A stretch of 64,000 nucleotides of DNA, from the NCBI RefSeq assembly GCF_016919445.1, contig NZ_CP070356.1, forward strand, positions 1,371,501-1,435,500, in the 5' to 3' direction. The stretch is from Pseudomonas sp. PDNC002. GTDB lineage: Bacteria; Pseudomonadota; Gammaproteobacteria; Pseudomonadales; Pseudomonadaceae. The translations under genes were made by a program, and so were the position numbers. Positions 41,453 to 58,804 of this stretch are shown here, in pieces (positions within the stretch are counted from its first letter, which is position 1; each line of letters begins with the position of its first letter). The notes beneath the pieces are model-generated. The model made no database searches and was not told the origin of the DNA. It saw only the letters and a list, made by a program, of their open reading frames with translations.

Positions 41453-42892
<1,440 letters not shown>

Positions 42893-48555: not shown

Positions 48556-48583
48556 TTAAGTTTTCCTTCGAGGCGGTCGCCCT
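48556..48583 (+). promoter_or_regulatory. Sigma-28-type lateral promoter of flgM-flgN
   Basis: TTAAG-N15-GTCGCCCT, 36 bases before the flgM ATG. The same TTAAN-N15-GTCGCCYT pattern occurs before fliD and flagellin. Confidence 0.68.
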
Positions 48584-48619
48584 CTGAGGGAAAGCCCCAA
48601 AAATACTCGGATAACGACC

Positions 48620-48904
48620 ATGGAAATCACCCGGCAACTGACCAGCGCCGCGCTGGCCACCAGCGAGTCCGCCAAGAGCGCGCGCAGCGAGCGTGCCGCC
48701 CCGGTGGCAGAGACCAGCGCCAGTGCGCCGGTCAGCGATTCGCTGCGCCTGGACGAGATGCAGGAAACCCTGCGCGCCATGCCCGACGTGGACCAGGATC
48801 GCGTCGCCGAAATCCGCCGCGCCCTGATGAATGGCGATCTGGCCAACGACACACGCCTGCTCGCCACCAGCATTCTCTCCTACCATCGCGGCAGCGACGC
48901 ATGA
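48620..48904 (+). CDS. flgM: Anti-sigma-28 factor FlgM (lateral system)
   Basis: 94 residues. A disordered Ser/Ala-rich N-terminal half precedes the FlgM C-terminal helices (VDQDRVAEIRRALMNGDLAN, then TRLLATSILSYHR), which clamp sigma-28 until the hook is complete. Overlaps flgN by four bases. A LafS/FliA-type promoter precedes it, so sigma-28 would feed back on its own inhibitor. Confidence 0.9.
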   Translation: MEITRQLTSAALATSESAKSARSERAAPVAETSASAPVSDSLRLDEMQETLRAMPDVDQDRVAEIRRALMNGDLANDTRLLATSILSYHRGSDA

Positions 48905-49341
48905 CCCAGCGCGCGCGGCTGTTGCAGGTGATCGAGCAGGACATCCAGCAGGATGCCCGCGATTGCCTGGCGCTGCGCGAGCGCCTGCAGGAGCTGTATC
49001 GCCACCTGCTGGCGCGGGACAGCGCGCAGATCGAAGCGCTGAATCCCGATATCCAGGCGCTGCTCGACGCTGTCGCCGGCCGCGCCCAGCGCCGCAGCCG
49101 CGTGCTGCGCGCCTTCCATCTGCCGATGGACGCAGAGGGCATGCGCACGCTGCTCTCCAACTACACGCCGCCGCGCCGTGAGGAGCTGCAGCAGGAGTGG
49201 CTGCAACTGGGCCAGCTCACTGCCCAGTGCAAGCGCCTCAACGAGCGCAACGGCAAGCTGCTGGCGATGCACCACGACATCCTCAGCCAGCTGATGGGCG
49301 ATCCGCGCGAACAGCCGGTGTATTCCCAGCAGCTGTACTGA
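48901..49341 (+). CDS. flgN: FlgN-type flagellar export chaperone (lateral system)
   Basis: 146 residues, helical. The order flgM-flgN and a typical FlgN length support the call; family features include the long N-terminal helix and CKRLNERNGKLLAMHHDIL near 115. FlgN escorts the hook-filament junction proteins FlgK and FlgL, which are not encoded in this window. In related Flag-2 loci the rod and hook genes follow here; instead repeats and fliD come next. Confidence 0.78.
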   Translation: MTQRARLLQVIEQDIQQDARDCLALRERLQELYRHLLARDSAQIEALNPDIQALLDAVAGRAQRRSRVLRAFHLPMDAEGMRTLLSNYTPPRREELQQEWLQLGQLTAQCKRLNERNGKLLAMHHDILSQLMGDPREQPVYSQQLY

Positions 49342-49349
49342 CCTGATTC

Positions 49350-49420
49350 GTAGGAGCGGACTCCGTCCGCGATGGTGTCCGGCGTGATGCGGACCTATCG
49401 CGGACGGAGTCCGCTCCTAC
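49350..49420. repeat. Inverted REP pair (GGACTCCGTCC type)
   Basis: GTAGGAGCGGACTCCGTCCG..CGA at 49350-49372 and its exact reverse complement at 49398-49420, with 25 bases between: a perfect 23-bp stem. Same GTAGGAGCG start as the other REP family but a different core. Confidence 0.88.
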
Positions 49421-49454
49421 GCGAGTTCCTGTCTCTCTGTGCAGTGCACAAGGC

Positions 49455-49585
49455 CCCTCACCCTAACCCTCTCCCGCTTGCGGGAGAGGGGACCGTTCGG
49501 CGCAGGATGAAACCTCGACATCAGCCAGCACAATCTGCCCCCTCTCCCTCAGGAGCGGGGCGCGTAGCCAGGGCTGGGGTGAGGG
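49455..49585. repeat. CCCTCACCC...GGGTGAGGG palindromic element, copy 6
   Basis: Left end CCCTCACCCTAACCCTCTCC; right end contains the TACGC-type insert (GGGGCGCGTAGCCAGGGCTG) before GGGGTGAGGG, the inverse of the left end of the copy at 23711. Confidence 0.78.
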
Positions 49586-49652
49586 AAGGCCGCTGGCAGC
49601 GATACGTCCGGCAGCGGCTGCAGAGTCTGCAAAAACACCCCGCCGAAACCCC

Positions 49653-49680
49653 TTAACAAATCCCTCCCCACGGTCGCCCT
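49653..49680 (+). promoter_or_regulatory. Sigma-28-type lateral promoter of fliD-S-T-K-L-A-motAB
   Basis: TTAAC-N15-GTCGCCCT, about 190 bases before fliD. Same spacing and -10 as the flgM and flagellin promoters. It would make the fliA gene of this operon autoregulated. Confidence 0.65.
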
Positions 49681-49868
49681 TCCTCTGCATCAGGGCGCGC
49701 GCCCGGCAGGCGGAAATTCCGCTTCCCGCTACGCGCCAAACCACGCCGGGCGGAAGTTCACCTTCTCCCCGGGTAGCCCGCAAAGCCTTGAACGACGGGC
49801 CTTACGGCATTGGCATCGTAATTGCTCCTGACCTTATGCAGAGGGGGGGCACAAAGAGGTGGATTCAG

Positions 49869-51218
49869 ATGGCGACCATAGATTCCGATTACGTCAAACA
49901 GATGGCCCAGCAGCTGGCCACGTACGAAGTGCAGAACGGCCTGAGCAAGGCTGATCGCAACAAGTCGTCGTACCAGTCCCAGCTGACCGCGGTGACCTCC
50001 CTGGAGACGGCGCTCAAGAGCTTCTCCACGGCGGTGAAGAACCTGCAGGGCGTGACCGGCAGCAAGACCAGCATGCTGGTCAACAGCGCCACCCTGAGCA
50101 AGGACGGCTACCTGACCGCCAAGGTGGACAAGACCGCTGTGCCCGGCAGCTACGACTTCTTCGTCGAGCAGCTCGCCACCAGTCACCAGCTGTCGCTCTC
50201 CGGTTTGCAGGCCAGCGACATCGACACCCAGGGCACCCTGACCCTGGGCCAGAACGGCAAGTCCTTCGACATCGACCTGAGCAAGATCGACACCGACGGT
50301 GACGGCAGCAACTCGCTGGACGAGTTGGCTGCGGCGATCAACAAGGCCACCGACAACACCGGCGTGAAGGCCACCCTGGTGCGCAGCAACGGCCAGGTCT
50401 CGCTGGTACTGGGCGCGGACAAGTCCGGCGCGGCGAATGCCATCAGCCTGTCGCTGAGCGGCACCGACAGCGGTAACAGCGCCTTCGAGAACGCCATCGG
50501 CAATCCGCAGGAGCTGTCCAAGGCGCAGGACGCCCGTGTCCGCCTGGGCGGCGAGAGCGGCATGTTGCTGAGCAACGCCAGCAACACCTTCGACAACATC
50601 ATCGACGGCGTCAGCGTCACCTTCACCCAGGCGCAGAAGCCCGGCGAGGCGCCCATCACCATGACCGTGGCGCAGGATCAGAGCGAGACCAAGAAGAAGG
50701 TGCAGACCTTCATCGACGCCTTCAATGCGCTGGCCGGCCAGATCGACAGCCTGACCGCCGCCGGCGACCAGAACGGCAACGCCCGTGGCGCCCTGGCTGG
50801 CGACTCCAGCGTGCGGGCCATCGAGAACGCGCTGAACCAGATGGTCCGCACCACCTTCGGCGGCGCCAACCTGATCAACTTCGGCATCAGCGCCGACCGC
50901 AGCGGCAAGCTGACCCTCGATGCCACGCGCTTCGAGAAGGCCATCGCCGCCGACCCGGAAGGGCTCGACAAGCTGTTCATGGGCAAGGGCAACCTGCTCG
51001 ACAGCCTGGACAAGGGTGTCGCGGTCTACACCAACAGCACCAACGGTGTGATGAAGAACCGCAAGGACGCGCTGAACAACAGCCTGCGCCGCGTCGACGA
51101 TGACTACGACAACCTGCAGAAGCAGTACGACACCTACTACGCGCGCTACCTCAAGCAATACACCTCGATGATGCAGGTCATGCAGTCGATGAGTCAGACC
51201 AGCGGGATGTTCGGATGA
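49869..51218 (+). CDS. fliD: Flagellar cap protein FliD (lateral system, LafB)
   Basis: 449 residues from ATG 49869 (MATIDSDYVKQMAQQL); an upstream frame from 49788 lacks similarity. N-terminal FliD_N segment (FSTAVKNLQGVTGSKTSMLV, YDFFVEQLATSHQLS) and C-terminal FliD_C with coiled-coil end (DDDYDNLQKQYDTYYARYLK, MMQVMQSMSQTSGMFG) frame a short variable middle. It caps the growing filament and folds flagellin. It overlaps fliS by four bases and starts the filament/motor operon. Confidence 0.92.
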   Translation: MATIDSDYVKQMAQQLATYEVQNGLSKADRNKSSYQSQLTAVTSLETALKSFSTAVKNLQGVTGSKTSMLVNSATLSKDGYLTAKVDKTAVPGSYDFFVEQLATSHQLSLSGLQASDIDTQGTLTLGQNGKSFDIDLSKIDTDGDGSNSLDELAAAINKATDNTGVKATLVRSNGQVSLVLGADKSGAANAISLSLSGTDSGNSAFENAIGNPQELSKAQDARVRLGGESGMLLSNASNTFDNIIDGVSVTFTQAQKPGEAPITMTVAQDQSETKKKVQTFIDAFNALAGQIDSLTAAGDQNGNARGALAGDSSVRAIENALNQMVRTTFGGANLINFGISADRSGKLTLDATRFEKAIAADPEGLDKLFMGKGNLLDSLDKGVAVYTNSTNGVMKNRKDALNNSLRRVDDDYDNLQKQYDTYYARYLKQYTSMMQVMQSMSQTSGMFG

Positions 51219-51613
51219 GTGCCTACGGCATGAACGAAAGCTACGACAGCTATCGGATGATCGACCTGGAGGCCAAGGCCGCGTCGTCTTCGCCCTATGA
51301 ACTGGTGCTGGTGCTGTTCGACGGCCTGCTCGACGAGCTGGCCCGTGCCCGTGGGCATATCGAGCACAAGCGTTATCAGCAGAAGGGCCGCTCGCTGGAG
51401 AAGTGCCTGAACATCCTCAATGGGCTCAACGGCGCGCTCGACTACGAGAATGGCGGCGACACCGTCCAGGGCCTGGCGCGCCTGTACGACTACTGCATCT
51501 ACCGGCTCTCCGACGTCAGCGTGTCGCTGGACGTCGCCGGCATCGATGAAGTCGTGCGCCTGCTGGGCATCCTGCGCGAAGGCTGGGAGGGCGTGAGTGC
51601 CGCTCGTGGATGA
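51215..51613 (+). CDS. fliS: Flagellin export chaperone FliS (lateral system, LafC)
   Basis: 132 residues. FliS signature near the N-terminus: SPYELVLVLFDGLLDELARA with the following KGRSLEKCLNILNGLNGALD, and LYDYCIYRLSDVSV near 90. It binds the flagellin C-terminus to prevent premature assembly. It overlaps fliT by 17 bases. Confidence 0.92.
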   Translation: MSAYGMNESYDSYRMIDLEAKAASSSPYELVLVLFDGLLDELARARGHIEHKRYQQKGRSLEKCLNILNGLNGALDYENGGDTVQGLARLYDYCIYRLSDVSVSLDVAGIDEVVRLLGILREGWEGVSAARG

Positions 51614-51914
51614 TCGCCAGCGCCTGCTCGAGCTGTACGAACGGCTCGGTGCGGCGCTGCAGCGCAAGGACTGGAAAGCCATGGGGCAGGTCGACCTGGC
51701 GATCCGCGCGCAACTGGTGACGATGTCGTCGCAAGCCGGGTTGGCGGCCGATGTGCTGCTGGCCAAGAAACGTCTCAAGCGCCTGCATGAGCAGGCATCC
51801 CAGGCCTGCGCCGAGGAGTGCGAGCGCCTGCGTCGCCTGCTGCTGTCGCACCTGGAGTACGCCGAGGGGCGTTCGGCGTACATGCAGGTGGACAGCTTCC
51901 AGGAGGGTCGATAG
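51597..51914 (+). CDS. fliT: FliT-like flagellar chaperone (LafD position)
   Basis: 105 residues from a GTG, all helical, with little sequence conservation. The identification comes from its place between fliS and fliK, matching lafD, and from length. FliT binds FliD and modulates export. The start lies inside the end of fliS. Confidence 0.65.
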   Translation: MPLVDDRQRLLELYERLGAALQRKDWKAMGQVDLAIRAQLVTMSSQAGLAADVLLAKKRLKRLHEQASQACAEECERLRRLLLSHLEYAEGRSAYMQVDSFQEGR

Positions 51915-51917
51915 ACC

Positions 51918-53069
51918 GTGATCCAGTTACCGACCCAATCCCCGCCCACCACGGACCGCGATGCGCGCCCGGTGGCCGAGGCACGTCCGCCGGTTTCAAC
52001 GCGTGACGACTCACGCGTTGCCGGCTTCCGCGCGCAGCAGCCGACGCAGTCGAATGCCGGCGAGCGGGCGATCAGCGTGCAGTCCTTCCTGACCCAGTTC
52101 GACACGGCGCAGGTCGAGCAAACCACGCAGCCACCGACCGTCGCGCAGCCGGGGCTTCCCGAGGCACTGCCTGCGGAAGACACCGACGCCGACATGTCCG
52201 CCCAGCGGGTCGACGATGCCTCGCCTTCCGGCGCGGAAAGCTGGCTCGCCGGCATGCTCAGCCAGGCCGGGCTGGTGGTCCAGGCGCGGGATAATCCACC
52301 GGCACGGACTTCCGCACAGGTTCCGGGGTTCGCCACCCAGTCCGTCGATCCATCTGTGCAGTCCGCACCCGCTGCGGTCAAGCCCGAAGACATGCTGCTG
52401 CCGCCCGCCGAGCCGCAGGACGAGGCTGGGAAAGTCGCTGCCCCGGCCCCGCGCGAGGCCACCCAGAGCCAGGCGCAGACGCTGCTGCAACAGCACCTGA
52501 CTGCGACCTCGGTGGCACCGGAATCCCCCGCGCCGTCATTGCCTGGTGCAGCGCCCGTCACGAGTCTTCCGGCCGGCGACAACAACGCTCCAGCCACTGT
52601 CAGCGCAGCCGCGACGCCACTGTTCGACAAGCCCCTGCACCTCAAGGGCAACACCGAGGCCCATTGGGGCGAGCAGATGCTGACGGCGCTGCGCGACAAC
52701 GTCGAGCTGCAACTGACCCAGCGCGTACAGAACGCCACGATCCGTCTCGATCCGCCGGAGCTGGGCGCCATGGAGATCCTCGTGCGCCACGAGGCCGGCC
52801 AGCTCAACGTGCAGATTTCCGCCAGCAACGGCGACGTCGTGCGCCTGCTGCAGAACACCAGCGAGCGACTGCGCCAGGAGCTGGTCGGGCAGAACTTCCT
52901 GCAGGTCAACGTGCAGGTCTCGCCCGATGCCCAGTCCGGCCAGCAAGGCCAGCAGAACCGCCAGCGCTTTGCCGACGAGCAGGTCGCGGTCGCCGCCAAC
53001 CCGCGCGATGCGCAGGCGGGCGAGCGCTCCGCGCCGCGTGGCGACAGCGACGTACTGATTACCGTGTAG
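51918..53069 (+). CDS. fliK: Flagellar hook-length control protein FliK (lateral system, LafE)
   Basis: 383 residues from a GTG. The first ~250 residues are Pro/Ala/Gln-rich and disordered; the Flg_hook domain follows (about 255-345) with VQNATIRLDPPELGAMEILV and NVQISASNGDVVRLLQNTSE. FliK measures hook length and triggers the FlhB switch. Its presence implies that a hook is made even though hook genes are not in this window. Confidence 0.9.
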   Translation: MIQLPTQSPPTTDRDARPVAEARPPVSTRDDSRVAGFRAQQPTQSNAGERAISVQSFLTQFDTAQVEQTTQPPTVAQPGLPEALPAEDTDADMSAQRVDDASPSGAESWLAGMLSQAGLVVQARDNPPARTSAQVPGFATQSVDPSVQSAPAAVKPEDMLLPPAEPQDEAGKVAAPAPREATQSQAQTLLQQHLTATSVAPESPAPSLPGAAPVTSLPAGDNNAPATVSAAATPLFDKPLHLKGNTEAHWGEQMLTALRDNVELQLTQRVQNATIRLDPPELGAMEILVRHEAGQLNVQISASNGDVVRLLQNTSERLRQELVGQNFLQVNVQVSPDAQSGQQGQQNRQRFADEQVAVAANPRDAQAGERSAPRGDSDVLITV

Positions 53070-53113
53070 GCCGTCTGCGGTCCGCATCCCCACAGGATTT
53101 TTCGAGAAACCCC

Positions 53114-53602
53114 ATGTCCACGCCGCGTCTCGTTCTACTGATGCTCATCGTGAATATCGCCGTCGTGCTGGGTGGCGTGTTCGTCAATTACAAGATGATC
53201 AAGTCCGCCAGCCTCGCCCCGGCCGCTGCTGCTTCCGACAAGGAGGGCGGCAAGGAAGACGCCGGGGAGGAGGAAGAGCAGGAGAGCGCCGAATACCTCT
53301 TCGTGCCGGTGGAAAAGATCATCGTCAGCTCCCGTGGCGAAGACCGCGAACACTACTTCGTGATCGACCTGGTGCTGCAGGCCAAGGCTGAGCAGGAGCG
53401 CAAGAAGCTGGAAAGCGTCGCGCCCATGGTGCGCAGCTCGGTGGTTGCAAACCTGACCCCGGAGAAGTTCGAAGTGCTGCGTGCCATGCCCATCGGCGAC
53501 GTGCAGACGCGCCTGGAGAAGGCGGTGATCGACGACTTCGCCGCGCGCAAGGTGGTGGTGCCCTTCGAGCACGTGATGCTCAGCAAGATGGTCGTCCAGT
53601 AA
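53114..53602 (+). CDS. fliL: Flagellar basal body protein FliL (lateral system, LafF)
   Basis: 162 residues: one N-terminal membrane helix (about 5-25), an acidic linker (EEEEQES), then a FliL periplasmic domain (EYLFVPVEKIIVSS, YFVIDLVLQAKAE, PEKFEVLRAMPIGDVQTRLE). FliL encircles the stator and supports torque. It lies between fliK and fliA. Confidence 0.9.
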   Translation: MSTPRLVLLMLIVNIAVVLGGVFVNYKMIKSASLAPAAAASDKEGGKEDAGEEEEQESAEYLFVPVEKIIVSSRGEDREHYFVIDLVLQAKAEQERKKLESVAPMVRSSVVANLTPEKFEVLRAMPIGDVQTRLEKAVIDDFAARKVVVPFEHVMLSKMVVQ

Positions 53603-53608
53603 GCCGCC

Positions 53609-54358
53609 ATGCATGCCCTTCGCGATCCCGCCTGCGACTACGTCGCCGCCTATGCCGGTGAGGGTGGACATGTCCGCCTGACGCCGGCCGCCGAGCAGCG
53701 CTGGATGATGCAGTACCTGCCCCTGGTACGCCGCATCGTCAGCCAGCTGTCGCTGCAGGCCAACCAGGTGCTGGACCGCGAGGACATGGAGCAGATCGGC
53801 CTGATGGGCCTGCTTGAAGGCCTGCGCCGCTACGGCGAACCGGATGAGCAGTTCGGCCGTTTCGCCGCGCTGCGTATCCGTGGTGCGATCCTCGACGAAC
53901 TTCGTCGCCTCGACTGGCGGCCGCGCCAGGTCCGGCAACAGGCGCACAAGGTGCGCGATGCGATCCGCGCGCTGGCACGCCAGCTCGGCCGCGTGCCCAG
54001 CGACGAAGAGGTACTCGCCGCCACCGGTCTCGACGAGGCGGGCTACCAGGACTACCTGCGCGCCGAATCCTCCGAGGCCATCGAGAGCTTCGACGCGCTG
54101 CTGCAAAACGGCCACGACGGCGTGCAGGGAAGCGGCGAAGCGCTGGAGGAGCGGGTGCTCAAGGAGCGTCTGCTGGCCCAGGCGCTGGAACGCCTCAATG
54201 AACGCGAGCGGCTGATTCTCAACCTGTATTACCAGCACGAGCTGAACCTCAAGGAAATCGCCCTGGTGCTGGAGCTGACCGATGCGCGCATCTGCCAGCT
54301 GATGAAGCAGGCGATCGGCAAGTGCAGCCGTTTCCTCAACGACCCCGACACTCTCTGA
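53609..54358 (+). CDS. fliA: Flagellar sigma-28 factor FliA (LafS)
   Basis: 249 residues. Sigma-70 family regions 2 (EDMEQIGLMGLLEGLRRY near 50, RFAALRIRGAILDELRRLDW near 80), 3 (KVRDAIRALARQLGRVPSDE) and 4 (RERLILNLYYQHELNLKEIA, VLELTDARICQLMKQAI) are all present. It should transcribe late lateral genes; FlgM (48620) is the predicted inhibitor. Its -10-recognising part may be adapted to the GTCGCC element seen at three lateral promoters. It lies in the fliD operon, 13 bases before motA. Confidence 0.93.
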   Translation: MHALRDPACDYVAAYAGEGGHVRLTPAAEQRWMMQYLPLVRRIVSQLSLQANQVLDREDMEQIGLMGLLEGLRRYGEPDEQFGRFAALRIRGAILDELRRLDWRPRQVRQQAHKVRDAIRALARQLGRVPSDEEVLAATGLDEAGYQDYLRAESSEAIESFDALLQNGHDGVQGSGEALEERVLKERLLAQALERLNERERLILNLYYQHELNLKEIALVLELTDARICQLMKQAIGKCSRFLNDPDTL

Positions 54359-54371
54359 AGAATCCATAACC

Positions 54372-55244
54372 ATGCAGAAAATCATCGGCGCCCTGATCAT
54401 CATCGCCGCCGTGCTCGGCGGCTACGCCATGGCCCACGGCGACATGCGCGCACTCTGGCAGCCGGCGGAAATGCTGATCATCCTCGGCGCTGGCCTCGGC
54501 TCGCTGGTCGTCGCCAACCCGCGCGAAGTGCTGCTGGAGATGTGCTCGCAGATCAAGGGCGTGTTCGTCTTCAAGCGCCGTGGCGAGGAGTTCCAGCGCC
54601 AGTTGCTGATGCTCCTCTACGAACTGCTGGAGATGGTCGACGTCGGCGGCCTGAAAGTGCTCGATGCACACATCGAGGAGCCGGAGCAGAGCGATCTGTT
54701 CGCCCGCTATCCGCTGATCCTCCAGGAAAAGAACCTGATGGCGTTCATCGCCGACAACTTCCGCCTGATGGCCATGGGCAAGATCAGCGCGCACGAGCTG
54801 GAAGGCTTCCTCGAGCAGGAGCTGGACGCCATGGAGCACGCCCTGCTGCAACCGTCCAAGTCGCTGCACAAGGTTGGCGAGGCGATGCCCGGCTTCGGCA
54901 TTCTCGCGGCGATCCTCGGGATCATCATCACCATGGGCAACATCGGCGGATCGGTGGCCGAGATCGGCGCCCACGTGGCGGCCGCGCTGGTGGGGACCTT
55001 CTTCGGTATCTTCGTCTGCTACTGCTTGATGGACCCGCTGTCCAACGCCATGTCGCAGCGGGTGAAGACCGAGCTGTCGGCGCTGGAATGCGTGCGCACC
55101 ACGCTGGTCGCCCACGTCGCAGGCAAGCCGACGCTGCTGGCGGTGGACGCCGGCCGCAAGCTGATCGAGCAGGACGTGAAACCCGCCTTCAAGCAGCTGG
55201 AAACCTGGGTGACCCGCTATGAGGAAGAGCGGGACGCAGCATGA
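54372..55244 (+). CDS. motA: Flagellar motor stator protein MotA (lateral system, LafT)
   Basis: 290 residues with four membrane helices and the MotA cytoplasmic loop (GKISAHELEGFLEQELDAME, PGFGILAAILGIIITMGNIG near 175, GTFFGIFVCYCLMDPL near 210). It includes the conserved prolines of helix 3 and helix 4. Forms the stator channel with MotB. Overlaps motB by four bases. Whether protons or Na+ drive it cannot be told. Confidence 0.93.
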   Translation: MQKIIGALIIIAAVLGGYAMAHGDMRALWQPAEMLIILGAGLGSLVVANPREVLLEMCSQIKGVFVFKRRGEEFQRQLLMLLYELLEMVDVGGLKVLDAHIEEPEQSDLFARYPLILQEKNLMAFIADNFRLMAMGKISAHELEGFLEQELDAMEHALLQPSKSLHKVGEAMPGFGILAAILGIIITMGNIGGSVAEIGAHVAAALVGTFFGIFVCYCLMDPLSNAMSQRVKTELSALECVRTTLVAHVAGKPTLLAVDAGRKLIEQDVKPAFKQLETWVTRYEEERDAA

Positions 55245-56233
55245 AGAAACGTGCCGACAAGCATGGCGAGATCATCATCAAGCGCCGCAGCAAGAAGGGC
55301 CACGATGATGAGCACGGCGGCGCCTGGAAAGTCGCCTTCGCCGACTTCACCCTGGCGATGATGGCGCTGTTCATGGTGCTGTGGATCGTCCACCCGCAGA
55401 CCGAGCCGCAGCCGGTGGCGGTGGGCGATCAGGACGCCAACCCGGTGGTCGATGGTGGCGCCGGCGTGTTCGATGGCGCCAGCCGCACACCTGTCGAACT
55501 GGACGGCATGCCCCAGCCGATCAAGACGCCGGAGAAACCCGCGCCGCAGCTCGCGCTCGACGCCGGCAAGCAGGGCAAGGCGGGCGAGCAGGCGAGAGAC
55601 TCCAACGTGCAGCAGGACGGCGACGGTCGTCAGTACGACAGCAACGAGGACCTGCGCGAGCTGGCCGAGCTGATCCGCGAGGTGTCCGGCAAGGTCGACG
55701 CGCTGGCCAACATCGAGGTGACGGTAGTGCCGCAGGGCCTGCGCATCCTGATCAAGGACGACCAGCAGCGCTTCATGTTCGAGCGCGGCCAGGCGACACT
55801 CGACCCGCACTTCCGGACCCTGCTCGGCGCGCTGTCCGGCGTGCTGTCCAAGGTGCAAAACAAACTGATCCTCAGTGGCCACACCGACGCCGTGCAGTAC
55901 CGCCGGCCGGATGGCTACAACAACTGGAACCTGTCCGGCGACCGTGCCCTGCGCGCGCGCAACGTGATGGTCGACAGCGGGCTGCCTGCGGCGCACGTGT
56001 TGCAGGTGGCGGCCCAGGCCGATGTCATGCCGCTGCGCCCGGAAGACCCGGAGAACGGCGCCAACCGGCGCATCGAAATCCTGCTACTGACCCAGCGCGC
56101 GGAGAGCCTGTACCGGGAAATCTTCGGCGAGAGTTATGCACAGGTGCACTACTCGGCGTCCGGTGCGCAGCTGGTGACGCCCAGGGCAAACGACGCAGCG
56201 CCCGCCAAGGCGGCCGCGCCGGTGACGCCGTGA
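55241..56233 (+). CDS. motB: Flagellar motor stator protein MotB (lateral system, LafU)
   Basis: 330 residues: cytoplasmic basic N-terminus, one helix with the proton-carrying Asp at residue 35 (AFADFTLAMMALFMVLW), a plug/linker, and an OmpA-like peptidoglycan-binding domain (about 185-285) with LSGHTDAVQYRRPDGYNNWN and NRRIEILLLT. It anchors the stator to the cell wall. Last gene of the rightward lateral operon, converging with the ToxS-like gene five bases beyond. Confidence 0.93.
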   Translation: MKKRADKHGEIIIKRRSKKGHDDEHGGAWKVAFADFTLAMMALFMVLWIVHPQTEPQPVAVGDQDANPVVDGGAGVFDGASRTPVELDGMPQPIKTPEKPAPQLALDAGKQGKAGEQARDSNVQQDGDGRQYDSNEDLRELAELIREVSGKVDALANIEVTVVPQGLRILIKDDQQRFMFERGQATLDPHFRTLLGALSGVLSKVQNKLILSGHTDAVQYRRPDGYNNWNLSGDRALRARNVMVDSGLPAAHVLQVAAQADVMPLRPEDPENGANRRIEILLLTQRAESLYREIFGESYAQVHYSASGAQLVTPRANDAAPAKAAAPVTP

Positions 56234-56238
56234 ACGGG

Positions 56239-56727
56239 TCAGCGCTTGCTCAGGTGGTATGGGCAGAACACCTGGCGCGTCTCCACACCGTAGAGGCAGT
56301 CGCCCAGCGGTTCGAGGGTGATGCGCGCGCCACGCTGGCGGCCGTAGAGCAGGTTGAAGATCAGCTCGCTGTCCAGGCCGCTGTCGGCCTGCAGGTTGCT
56401 GATGCTGTTCTCCTCGACCCGCAGCTGGTAGCGCCCAACGAGGTCGTTGCCGACGCCGCCGGAGACTTCGAGGATGTTGGCGTCCTGCTGGATCATCGAG
56501 TAGAAGCGCCCCTCGTGAACCATGGTGGTCTGGGCGATATCCAGTACCCGGCCGTTCCCCAGCACGACTTGCCCGGACGATGCGTAGCGACCGTCGATCT
56601 TCGAGGAGCTCTGCGTGTGCTTCCACAGCATGGCTACCGAGAGTGCGAGGCAGGCGAGGCCGAACAGCGAGATCAACAGGCAGCGGCGAGCCACGCCGGC
56701 CTGGCGGAACTGGTTCAGTTCAGGCAC
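56239..56727 (-). CDS. Inner-membrane protein paired with the ToxR-like regulator (ToxS-like position)
   Basis: 162 residues: one N-terminal membrane helix (CLLISLFGLACLALSVAML, about 16-35) and a periplasmic domain with two late cysteines (GDCLYGV, QVFCPYH). It starts 13 bases inside the end of the transmembrane regulator gene, the same arrangement as toxR-toxS. A ToxS-like partner that stabilises or signals through the regulator is inferred from context; no sequence family is recognised. Confidence 0.68.
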   Translation of the reverse strand: MPELNQFRQAGVARRCLLISLFGLACLALSVAMLWKHTQSSSKIDGRYASSGQVVLGNGRVLDIAQTTMVHEGRFYSMIQQDANILEVSGGVGNDLVGRYQLRVEENSISNLQADSGLDSELIFNLLYGRQRGARITLEPLGDCLYGVETRQVFCPYHLSKR

Positions 56728-57551
56728 TTGCGCAGCTGCTCCTGGGGAATCCGGGCGACCTGGCTCTCGTGGATCAGCAGCCAGTTGGACGTGCCTTCGG
56801 GTTGCACACAGACCAGTTCGTAGAAACCCGAGGTCATGTGCAGTAGCAAGGCGACGGGGCGAGTGGCCAGGTCGGCGAGCTGGCGCGCCAGCGGCCGGGT
56901 GTTGCGCATCAGTCGCTGCAACGCCTGTTCGTTCTCTTCGACGTAGGTGATCTGCAGGCTGCCGACGCTCTCTTCGGCAGTGAGGACCGGGCTGCGCACC
57001 TGGGTGTAGTAGAAGGCGCCGGCAAGAACCAGCAGGCCGAGGATGCAGAGGCTGGCGGCGACGAGTTTCAGACGCCGGGGATTCGGCGTTTCGGCGATTG
57101 TTTCGGCGCTCGCCAGTGGAATGACTTCCGGTGTGGCGTCGACGATTTCCTCGTCCGGCTCGCTGGCCGCGGTCACCAGGTATTGCGGATTGAACATGTA
57201 GCCGCGACGCGGCAGCGTCTGGATGATCTGTCGCTGCTTTTCGTCCGCCAGCACCTGGCGCAGGGTATAGATCTGCTGGTTCAGGCTGCCCTGGCCGACT
57301 ACCCGGTCGGACCAGGCGTGGGTCAGCAGTTCGTCGCGCGCGACCACGTCTCCCGGGCTTTGCAGCAGGCGTTCGAGCACGCGACTGCCGGAAAAGCCCA
57401 GGTCGATGCGTTCCACCTGGCCATCACGGTCGAGGTCGAGCTGATATAGCGCTGGATAGAACTGCGCGATGCAATCGGAACGGCCGGTACGGAGGGTCAG
57501 GCAGGCGATGGAAGGCCGACTGTCCGCAAGCGTTGAAGTGAATGTGCTCAT
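56715..57551 (-). CDS. ToxR-like transmembrane transcriptional regulator (LafZ-like)
   Basis: 278 residues from ATG 57551; a longer frame starts at 57605. An OmpR/ToxR winged helix (about 38-125: RVLERLLQSPGDVVARDELL, HAWSDRVVGQGSLNQQIYTL, PRRGYMF) is followed by one membrane helix (about 162-182) and a ~95-residue periplasmic part with a terminal Cys. E. coli Flag-2 loci carry a predicted transmembrane regulator, LafZ, near the filament genes, which fits this position. It may couple envelope or surface signals to lateral flagellin expression. Confidence 0.82.
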   Translation of the reverse strand: MSTFTSTLADSRPSIACLTLRTGRSDCIAQFYPALYQLDLDRDGQVERIDLGFSGSRVLERLLQSPGDVVARDELLTHAWSDRVVGQGSLNQQIYTLRQVLADEKQRQIIQTLPRRGYMFNPQYLVTAASEPDEEIVDATPEVIPLASAETIAETPNPRRLKLVAASLCILGLLVLAGAFYYTQVRSPVLTAEESVGSLQITYVEENEQALQRLMRNTRPLARQLADLATRPVALLLHMTSGFYELVCVQPEGTSNWLLIHESQVARIPQEQLRKCLN

Positions 57552-57840
57552 CTTGCCCTTGCGAGCCGCTCCCTTGACGGTCGCGGGGAAACTCCATATG
57601 TCCATGGAGGCAGGGGCATTATTTTGACGTCAGAAAAATGTGGGTGCAAGTTCTGAATTTTGCACACTCGTGCTTGCAATTTTCACACAAGCCACGAAAT
57701 CACCACGCCAGAGCGGCGCTACGCGGATGATGCAGCTCGCGCCCACGTGTCAGCGTACCCGCAGACAGCAGAACGCCCCGCCGAGGCGGGGCGTTCGGAT
57801 GGCACTGCGCGAGACGGAGACGTCTCGCGCGGACCGGGCC
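57552..57840. other. Region between flagellin end and the LafZ-like gene
   Basis: 289 bases with two strong stem-loops near flagellin and an AT-rich stretch (57610-57700) holding TGCAA-type repeats (TTTGCACAC, CTTGCAATTT). No gene is seen. Presumably the LafZ-like promoter lies here on the - strand. Confidence 0.5.
57771..57830 (-). terminator. Two stem-loops at the end of the flagellin transcript
   Basis: Just past the flagellin stop: GCGCGAGACG/CGTCTCGCGC (57807-57830, perfect 10-bp stem) and GAACGCCCCGCC/GGCGGGGCGTTC (57771-57796, perfect 12-bp stem). Neither has a clear U-run, so they may protect the mRNA as well as stop transcription. Confidence 0.65.
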
Positions 57841-58722
57841 TTAGCCCAGCAGGCCCATGATCATGCTGGGCATCTGGCCGGCTTGCTTGAGCATGGAGAT
57901 GCCGGACTGCATGAGCATGGAGTTCTTGCTCATGTTGGCGCTTTCGACGGCGAAGTCGGCGTCCATGATGCGGCCTTTGGACAGGTCGGTGTTGTCCTTC
58001 ATGTTGGCCAGGTTGTTGGAGGTGTGCTGCAGGCGGTTGATGTTCGCGCCGAACTGCGCGCGCAGGCTGCCGATGGCGTCCAGCGCCTTGCTGGCGTTAT
58101 CGATGGAATCGTTGGCGCCGCTCAGGGTTTCCAGCTCGGTGCCGGCAGCCGGGGTGGCGGCGAATTGCTTGGTCAGGGTGCCGAAGGCGTCGGTCACGGC
58201 TTTCAGCTGGGTGGCGACGTCGACGTTCAGGGTTTCGGCTTTGTCCGAACCGATCTGGAAGGTCACGCCACCGGTGGTGCCGAACTTGCCGCTGGCGCCA
58301 TCGACGCCGAACAGCGCGTCACCGGCGAACTTGGTGTTGGAGATGATGTTGGTCAGCTCCTTGCCCAGCTCGTTGAACTCGGCGGACAGGGCCTTGCCGT
58401 CGTCGGTGGAGTTGGTGCCGTTGGCGGCCTGGGTGGCCAGGTCCTTCATGCGCTGGGTGATGTCGGTCAGCTCGCTGAACGCGCCGTCGGCGGTCTGCAT
58501 CAGGGAGATGGCGTCGCTGGTGTTGCGCATGGCCACGTCCATACCGCGGGACTGGGCGTTCAGGCGGGTGGCGATCTGCAGGCCGGCGGCGTCGTCGGCG
58601 GCGGAGTTGATGCGCAGGCCGGTGCCCAGGCGCTGCTGGTTGGTCGCCAGCAGGCTGTTGGTCTTGCCCAGGTTGGTCTGGGTGATCAGGGAGGAGTAGT
58701 TGGTTTGAATCGACAAGGCCAT
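57841..58722 (-). CDS. Lateral flagellin (LafA)
   Basis: 293 residues. Flagellin N domain (SIQTNYSSLITQTNL, LRINSAADDAAGLQIATRLN near 50) and C domain (NNLANMKDNTDLSKGRIMDA, ANMSKNSMLMQSGISMLKQA) with only a small middle region, so the D2/D3 outer domains are nearly absent. The short length is typical of lateral flagellins. A single flagellin gene is present, 48 bases downstream of a predicted sigma-28-type start site. Confidence 0.93.
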   Translation of the reverse strand: MALSIQTNYSSLITQTNLGKTNSLLATNQQRLGTGLRINSAADDAAGLQIATRLNAQSRGMDVAMRNTSDAISLMQTADGAFSELTDITQRMKDLATQAANGTNSTDDGKALSAEFNELGKELTNIISNTKFAGDALFGVDGASGKFGTTGGVTFQIGSDKAETLNVDVATQLKAVTDAFGTLTKQFAATPAAGTELETLSGANDSIDNASKALDAIGSLRAQFGANINRLQHTSNNLANMKDNTDLSKGRIMDADFAVESANMSKNSMLMQSGISMLKQAGQMPSMIMGLLG

Positions 58723-58776
58723 GGTGGACTTCCTGTATGAGCTGGATGAAGCCGGCGTTGTGCCTGCTGAAGAGGT

Positions 58777-58804
58777 AAGGCGACAGCTCGCAGGAGGGCA
58801 TTAA
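58777..58804 (-). promoter_or_regulatory. Sigma-28-type lateral promoter of flagellin
   Basis: On the - strand TTAAT-N15-GTCGCCTT. Same spacing and -10 core as the elements before flgM and fliD. Predicted start site near 58770. Confidence 0.7.

Follow-up and report, generated by a model that had tools for sequence, protein, structure and literature searches.

A 64,000-nucleotide stretch of the Pseudomonas sp. PDNC002 genome (G000:C1:1371501-1435500 of a one-contig genome of 6.39 Mb; hereafter, the window) carries a lateral flagellar locus with a sigma-28 gene of its own, here called lafS. Three copies of a short element, TTAA-N16-GTCGCCYT, stand upstream of the lateral flgM, fliD, and flagellin genes. 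Judging from their sequence and setting, these are very likely promoters for RNA polymerase carrying LafS, and they would belong to a lateral-specific class (TTAA-N16-GTCG[CT][CT]YN) found at flgMN, flgK, the fliD...lafS-motAB run, and flagellin. LafS itself is best read as a sigma-28 paralogue that recognises a -35 and a -10 of its own. The elements and the genes that they concern are as follows (positions in the window).

48556..48583, +: putative LafS-type promoter element TTAAG-N15-GTCGCCCT, 36 nt 5' of flgM; exact match, 0 mismatches
49653..49680, +: putative LafS-type promoter element TTAAC-N15-GTCGCCCT, 188 nt 5' of fliD; exact match, 0 mismatches
58777..58804, -: putative LafS-type promoter element TTAAT-N15-GTCGCCTT, 54 nt 5' of lateral flagellin; exact match, 0 mismatches
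48620..48904, +: lateral flgM (anti-sigma factor), named from the initial annotation and its recurring place before flgN
49869..51218, +: lateral fliD (Pfam), heading the run fliD-fliS-fliK-lafS-motAB
53609..54358, +: lateral sigma-28 (FliA-like, here LafS), with sigma-70 regions by Pfam
57841..58722, -: lateral flagellin, from its translation; N-terminal part 48% identical to the polar flagellin

The element in the PDNC002 genome

The exact pattern has only three matches in the entire genome, all of them before lateral flgM, fliD, and flagellin, while the reversed pattern has one. When up to two mismatches are allowed, the window holds 13 matches against 3.2 expected, and none of 100 shuffles reached 13. 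The initial annotation had given the coordinates and strands of the three elements, all of which are correct, and had claimed a sigma-28 and FlgM for the locus, where Pfam finds sigma-70 regions and a flgM-like gene lies at 48620. It had also proposed a whole-genome scan for the motif, and the matches are indeed not randomly scattered, as 3/3 exact matches fall at lateral late genes.

A weight matrix run over the window and its right-hand neighbourhood revealed one further strong site, TTAAGCGCCACGCCGATTCCGTCGCCTA, with a score of 20.8. This site (G000:C1:1444613-1444640) lies outside the window, falls inside the preceding reading frame, and ends 87 nt 5' of lateral flgK (identified by Pfam); it misses the exact pattern at the last base only. 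The remaining matrix matches in the window scored at most 14.7, and none was seen before a lateral late gene. The flgK site was present in 18/18 other tested Pseudomonas loci, with seventeen scoring at least 20.8 and L101 scoring 16.6, though in the P. nitroreducens group it sits within coding sequence and is informative only in the more distant loci. Upstream regions of flgB and flgA scored no higher than 4.0 (reversed flgB controls reached 11.6). Some rows labelled flgL scored highly, but these were 25-29% matches only and are read as flagellin genes, judged by place.

In E. coli, flgM, flgK, fliD, and flagellin head late operons served by sigma-28. The putative lateral promoters precede these same four genes and are lacking at the early and middle lateral genes examined, with fliM in the P. 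citronellolis group (see below) as the exception. The E. coli FliA table includes both flgMN and flgKL (PMC4183435).

Distribution among Pseudomonas and more distant relatives

Of twenty-five Pseudomonas genomes, PDNC002 included, eighteen yielded a lateral sigma factor (E <= 1e-50; identity 70-100%); the other seven have none. The exact pattern has 61 matches over the twenty-five genomes, compared to 20 for the reversed control. Fifty-three of these are in or near the lateral loci of the eighteen lafS genomes (2 or 3 per genome), no more than 30 kb from lafS on the same contig; the exception is in G001, where the match is on another contig, before lateral fliM. The remaining eight comprise six elsewhere in the lafS genomes and two in the seven genomes without lafS (the 53/6/2 split was counted by hand from the match list). 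Within the genus, then, the element accompanies the lateral sigma-28 and falls to background level where that sigma factor is absent.

For a wider view we used the best 80 of 127 relatives from a scan of genome contigs. These come mostly from Pseudomonas and Stutzerimonas, together with Saccharophagus, Serpens, a Lysobacteraceae metagenome-assembled genome, Hafnia, Kluyvera, and betaproteobacteria; the closest named LafS among them is that of P. nitroreducens 381H (93%), and PDNC002 probably belongs to this species group. Across the 80 loci, exact-pattern matches with spacers of N14, N15, N16, N17, and N18 numbered 0, 2, 109, 4, and 0, so that N16 accounts for 109/115 matches, in 66 loci. We then scored each locus with a weight matrix built without that locus. 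The matrix derives from matches to the initial annotation's own pattern, so the scores test the place of the element and not its core letters. Scores of at least 12 were found for 75/83 flagellin copies, 65/79 fliD regions, and 28/50 flgM regions (reversed controls: 0, 1, and 0), and scores of at least 8 for 77/83, 71/79, and 45/50 (reversed controls: 2, 1, and 0). None of 398 regions upstream of other lateral genes (motA 80, fliS 79, fliK 40, fliA 80, fliI 47, and regulator 72; fliF yielded no usable row) reached 12, and 8 was attained in a single regulator region. A more relaxed form, TT[AC]A-N16-G[TC]CG[CT][CT], occurs within 300 nt 5' of flgM, fliD, or flagellin in 79/80 loci, a count that has no control; L114 has none. 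Among individual genes, fliD of L101, L102, and L103 gave no good match, and fliD of Pseudoduganella (L111 and L120) scored only 7.8. Where the P. mendocina/alcaliphila group has tandem lateral flagellins (two to three copies; L058, L064, L067, L069), each copy has an element of its own.

Could the element have recurred by chance, or be functionless intergenic DNA shared by descent? The P. nitroreducens group, in which spacers are near-identical at each gene, fits the latter idea. Taking the spacers as a neutral yardstick for conservation, their mean pairwise identity across groups and genes is 0.35-0.44, and the element stays while they diverge; in addition, its presence tracks lafS, and controls are near zero. 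Chance was rejected because of the three exact genome matches, the distribution in the genus, the near-zero controls, and the shuffles, and we regard this explanation as a whole as extremely improbable.

It is also conceivable, if quite unlikely, that the element is not a sigma promoter at all, and that a lateral transcription factor uses it as an operator, for instance the Trans_reg_C protein encoded at 56715-57605. Most of the related loci also carry this regulator. Yet five betaproteobacterial loci (L112, L115, L116, L117, and L122) have no regulator match in the examined stretch and still have a fliD element scoring 14.4 to 24.0, and because several such loci keep the element without a regulator match, we rejected the operator as the main explanation. 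Moreover, the element is non-palindromic and its spacer is fixed; with TAA and then GnCG it looks like a sigma-28 promoter, and it precedes the sigma-28 gene set. A promoter of the extracytoplasmic function (ECF) type, with GTC in its -10, was also considered but not taken up; no search for ECF genes was made.

The relatives also refine the form of the element. Sites at flgM often end in GTCGCCTG or GTCGCTTG, which leads to the general form TTAA-N16-GTCG[CT][CT]YN; with GTCGCTT, GTCGTCTT, and GTCGTTTT existing as variants, GTCG[CT][CT]YN describes the -10 more accurately. Two sites, L085 flgM and L089 fliD, carry TAAA instead of TTAA. At the base that follows TTAA, the 161 unique sites of flgM, fliD, and flagellin have G in 99, T in 46, C in 16, and A in none, compared to an A share of 14% in the spacers; the sites are related by descent, and no probability is attached to this difference. 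The listed flgK sites likewise have no A at this base. A class-wide rule of 'never A after TTAA' was discarded, as two of five fliM sites (L173 and L175) and V. campbellii fliD have A. The lack of A could mean either that G or T is preferred here or that FliA is being avoided.

Polar promoters of the same genomes

In 24 of the 25 Pseudomonas genomes, TAAA-N15-G[AC]CGATA stands no more than 220 nt upstream of the polar flagellin (L230 is the one without it). With the lateral matrix, the upstream regions of polar flagellin scored 2.2 at most. With a polar matrix made from 21 unique polar sites, 95 lateral sites scored at most 4.7, while the minimum for the polar sites themselves was 20.9; with the lateral matrix, polar sites scored at most -8.9 and lateral sites at least 21.3. 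Both sets of sites were chosen by pattern. In the PDNC002 genome, relaxed canonical sites numbered 19 (reversed control: 5), none of them inside the window. Pfam assigned seven frames downstream of such sites to FliS, a CheA-like kinase (Hpt and dimer domains), two MCP-domain receptors, one HAMP protein cut by the locus end, and two PAS proteins.

By sequence, the lateral elements lack the TAAA and the GCCGATAA at N15 that would mark canonical FliA promoters. They resemble the canonical sigma-28 promoters given for E. coli (TAAA-N15-GCCGATAA; PMC4183435) in standing before a similar gene set, in having TAA at the -35, in the distance from -35 to -10, and in a -10 that opens with GnCG. They differ in an extra T before TAA, in a fourth base that is G, T, or C rather than A at the three late genes, in T as the second base of the -10, and in CCYT (or CTT, TCT) where the canonical -10 has ATAA. 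The initial annotation had described the spacing as equal to that of canonical sigma-28 promoters, which is true if TTAA is read as T+TAA+N, since TAA then sits at the start of the canonical TAAA and is followed by N15. It had confined the -10 difference to the second half of the -10; that half does differ, but so does the second base (T, where polar flagellin has A or C). The comparison with polar promoters that it had suggested came out in its favour, in that neither promoter set scores well with the matrix of the other.

Two sigma-28 factors in one genome

LafS and the polar FliA of PDNC002 are 40% identical. In LafS, sigma-70 regions 2 and 4 are above the Pfam cut-off and region 3 is just under it (23.8 vs 25.3 bits), and the best matches among Protein Data Bank (PDB) sequences are FliA entries (6pmi at 9.7e-34). 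These sigma-70 regions, the FliA nature of the nearest solved relatives, and the flgM-like gene and flagellar run nearby place LafS, by sequence, among the sigma-28 factors of FliA/WhiG type. We constructed a tree of 64 rows, using 33 of 83 lateral sigma factors (hand-picked, with near-copies thinned) and 31 FliA-type rows, for which 29 loci (L123-L151) served, best-scoring first. Lateral and FliA-type factors fall into separate clades, with values of 100/100 at the split, though the Vibrio row sits on a very long branch and its placement is uncertain. The class-wide search of 229 genomes that supplied these 29 loci gave no row above 40% identity besides the LafS of PDNC002 itself.

In an alignment of the 83 LafS and 31 FliA-type rows, R74 and D81 are invariant and R91 nearly so (K in four FliA-type rows). 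We take these three residues to be the -10 readers of sigma-28; since they are unchanged in LafS, any specificity change must lie at other positions. Residues typical of LafS include R89 (83/83), H98 (83/83), A219 (81/83), and K226 (82/83; E. coli FliA numbering), and all four are missing from the listed FliA-type rows. Changes at 68/69 and at 92/95/98 presumably correspond to sigma-70 residues that read the -10 and extended -10.

Taken together, the gene set, the absence of the element at the earlier genes examined, its co-occurrence with the lateral sigma factor, and the canonical polar flagellin promoters support the private lateral sigma-28 specificity that the initial annotation had proposed. 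Several points weigh against it, beyond the pattern-based choice of sites already described. The transcription starts of the elements and their dependence on LafS are predictions only. A relaxed pattern, TTMA-N16-GTCGCYT, shows no genome-wide enrichment (7 matches vs 14 in the reversed control), and two of its seven matches are at lateral genes. In the enterobacterial relatives, Hafnia and Kluyvera, the element is missing before fliD; their flagellin genes carry a form of it (GTCGTTTT, GTCGTCTT). In the P. citronellolis group, it also precedes the lateral fliM operon in five loci (L173-L177), and fliM is not a late gene. We dropped the attempt to tie specificity to residues, as there are too many LafS/FliA clade-specific columns to choose from. 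Last, the sequences are compatible with FliA also reading the lateral promoters.

The most serious competing account builds on that last point: both LafS and polar FliA would read the lateral promoters, and the -10 change would be drift without insulation. The core TAA-N16-GnCG is common to both promoter types, the presumed -10 readers are unchanged, and E. coli FliA is reported to tolerate varied sites (PMC4183435). Against this, the promoter difference is kept throughout the LafS clade, the lateral sites score far below the polar ones with the polar matrix, and A after TTAA is missing from all 161 sites. We consider dual reading unlikely.

A broader proposal is that the sigma-28 family is split into two orthogonal promoter languages within one cell, FliA (TAAA...G[AC]CGATA) and LafS (TTAA...GTCG[CT][CT]YN). 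The split would be old, with LafS in both beta- and gammaproteobacteria, and would be kept in part by selection against cross-recognition, visible in the missing A behind the TTAA of flgM, fliD, and flagellin sites. We hold this to be evenly balanced; that A does follow TTAA at some sites lowers its odds a little.

A putative sigma-54 site before fliD

Between the LafS-type element and fliD lies a second candidate promoter.

49810..49826, +: candidate sigma-54-type promoter TTGGCATCGTAATTGCT, 3' of the LafS element and 5' of fliD

It has the sigma-54 form that we used (TTGGCAC-N5-TTGCT, with GG and GC 10 bases apart). A site with at least 10 of 13 consensus letters was found before fliD in 70/77 loci, where about one is expected from shuffles, and in 0/69 flagellin regions and 0/50 flgM regions. 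This sigma-54-type site is conserved 3' of the LafS element, near fliD, in most gammaproteobacterial loci of L043-L119. None of the seven betaproteobacterial loci examined has it before fliD, and in these loci the LafS site is 24-65 nt from fliD. As predicted from these sites, the fliD...lafS operon has a tandem promoter, the LafS site and a nearer sigma-54 site, which suggests start-up by sigma-54 with a LafK-like activator followed by self-amplification of LafS.

We infer the following order of events. The LafK-like activator would first fire the sigma-54 promoter before fliD, so that LafS is made; FlgM would hold LafS until the hook is complete; and the freed LafS would read TTAA...GTCGCCYT at the late operons, its own included. 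Polar FliA would read TAAA-N15-G[AC]CGATA, keeping the regulons insulated within the cell. Each flagellar set probably answers to its own sigma factor.

In a V. parahaemolyticus study, RpoN bound the flgB2 and lafA promoters in gel shifts, but not those of lafB (fliD) or flgM, and the lafB sigma-54 site is listed as predicted (PMC9817140). This differs from the present locus type, in which RpoN would not be expected at flagellin, as the lateral flagellin has no sigma-54 site.

The surrounding locus

The other genes discussed above are the following.

48901-49341: flgN (FlgN by Pfam), after flgM
51215-51613: fliS (Pfam), in the fliD run
51918-53069: fliK (Pfam), in the fliD run
54372..56233, +: lateral motA (54372-55244) and motB (55241-56233) (Pfam)
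41453..42892, +: sigma-54-dependent activator, LafK-like; FlbD/NifA-type models, below their cut-offs
56715-57605, -: Trans_reg_C protein (Pfam), adjoining lateral flagellin

The name LafK was given by position and kind. The locus has the traits of a lateral (laf/Flag-2) system: a LafK-type activator, its own sigma-28 in a fliD-S-K-lafS-motAB run, a lateral-type flagellin, and a second flg cluster (second flgH at G000:C1:1442024).

Most loci of Pseudomonas, Hafnia, and Kluyvera keep the Trans_reg_C protein next to their lateral flagellin, but betaproteobacterial loci gave no match to it; in E. coli A10, a transcriptional regulator adjoins lafA. Around the flagellin promoter, a stretch CAGCAGGC just 3' of the -10 (58720-58776, -) is conserved in relatives too and may be a leader signal; flagellin promoters, and no others, also have an A-then-T tract further 5' that may be an UP element. 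A general UP element, suggested by the pooled logo, was rejected, as the tract proved specific to flagellin when the genes were taken one by one (A+T 0.81 vs 0.45 each for flgM and fliD). The pooled logo also has a purine in 98% of sites nine bases past the -10; in the per-gene consensus the flgM purine is one base further, so no fixed start is claimed. Between flgN and the fliD promoter (49345-49590), there are inverted repeats of the GTAGGAGCGGACTCCGTCCGCGA; CCCTCACCCTAACCCTCTCCC type, REP-like by eye.

A small PilZ-domain protein of the P. citronellolis group likewise has the element before it, in L174 (L174:3135) and L175 (L175:2472), a possible link to cyclic di-GMP. Pfam, run on one of each of the group's extra targets, gave FliMN_C for L176 (fliM) and PilZ for L174.

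Known lateral systems and significance

Lateral flagellar systems carry their own sigma-28, according to three papers (PMC3930126, PMC3658858, PMC4481668). As described there, the laf/Flag-2 systems of Vibrio, Aeromonas, Plesiomonas, and E. coli share gene content with this locus, and likewise have a LafK-type sigma-54 activator, their own sigma-28 and FlgM, and a hierarchy of sigma-54 then sigma-28. The Flag-2 locus of E. coli A10 has the same gene order as the fliD-S-K-lafS-motAB run. Its lafA has TTAA-N15-GTCGTTTT and its flgK scores 16.2 with GCCGCTTT; no element was seen at its flgM or fliD. In V. campbellii, TTAA-N17-GTCGCCTT in the fliD region and TTAA-N16-ACCGCCTC at lafA were found by eye. 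The E. coli lafA and V. campbellii sites are related to the LafS class but looser. P. fluorescens (ogarae) F113 also has a second flagellar cluster, which the abstract of its report describes as FlhDC-controlled and Azotobacter-like (PMC5031763), in contrast to the cluster described here with its LafK-like activator and LafS. In the open-licence literature, as far as its texts were accessible, we found no consensus for lateral sigma-28 promoters, though an earlier description from V. parahaemolyticus or E. coli Flag-2 is possible.

Nor did those texts give an account of how two sigma-28 factors in one cell separate their genes. A defined promoter class makes this separation directly testable, and allows late lateral genes to be predicted elsewhere, as with flgK here and, for the P. 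citronellolis group, fliM and the gene of the PilZ protein. LafS and FliA may thereby offer a natural orthogonal sigma-promoter pair.

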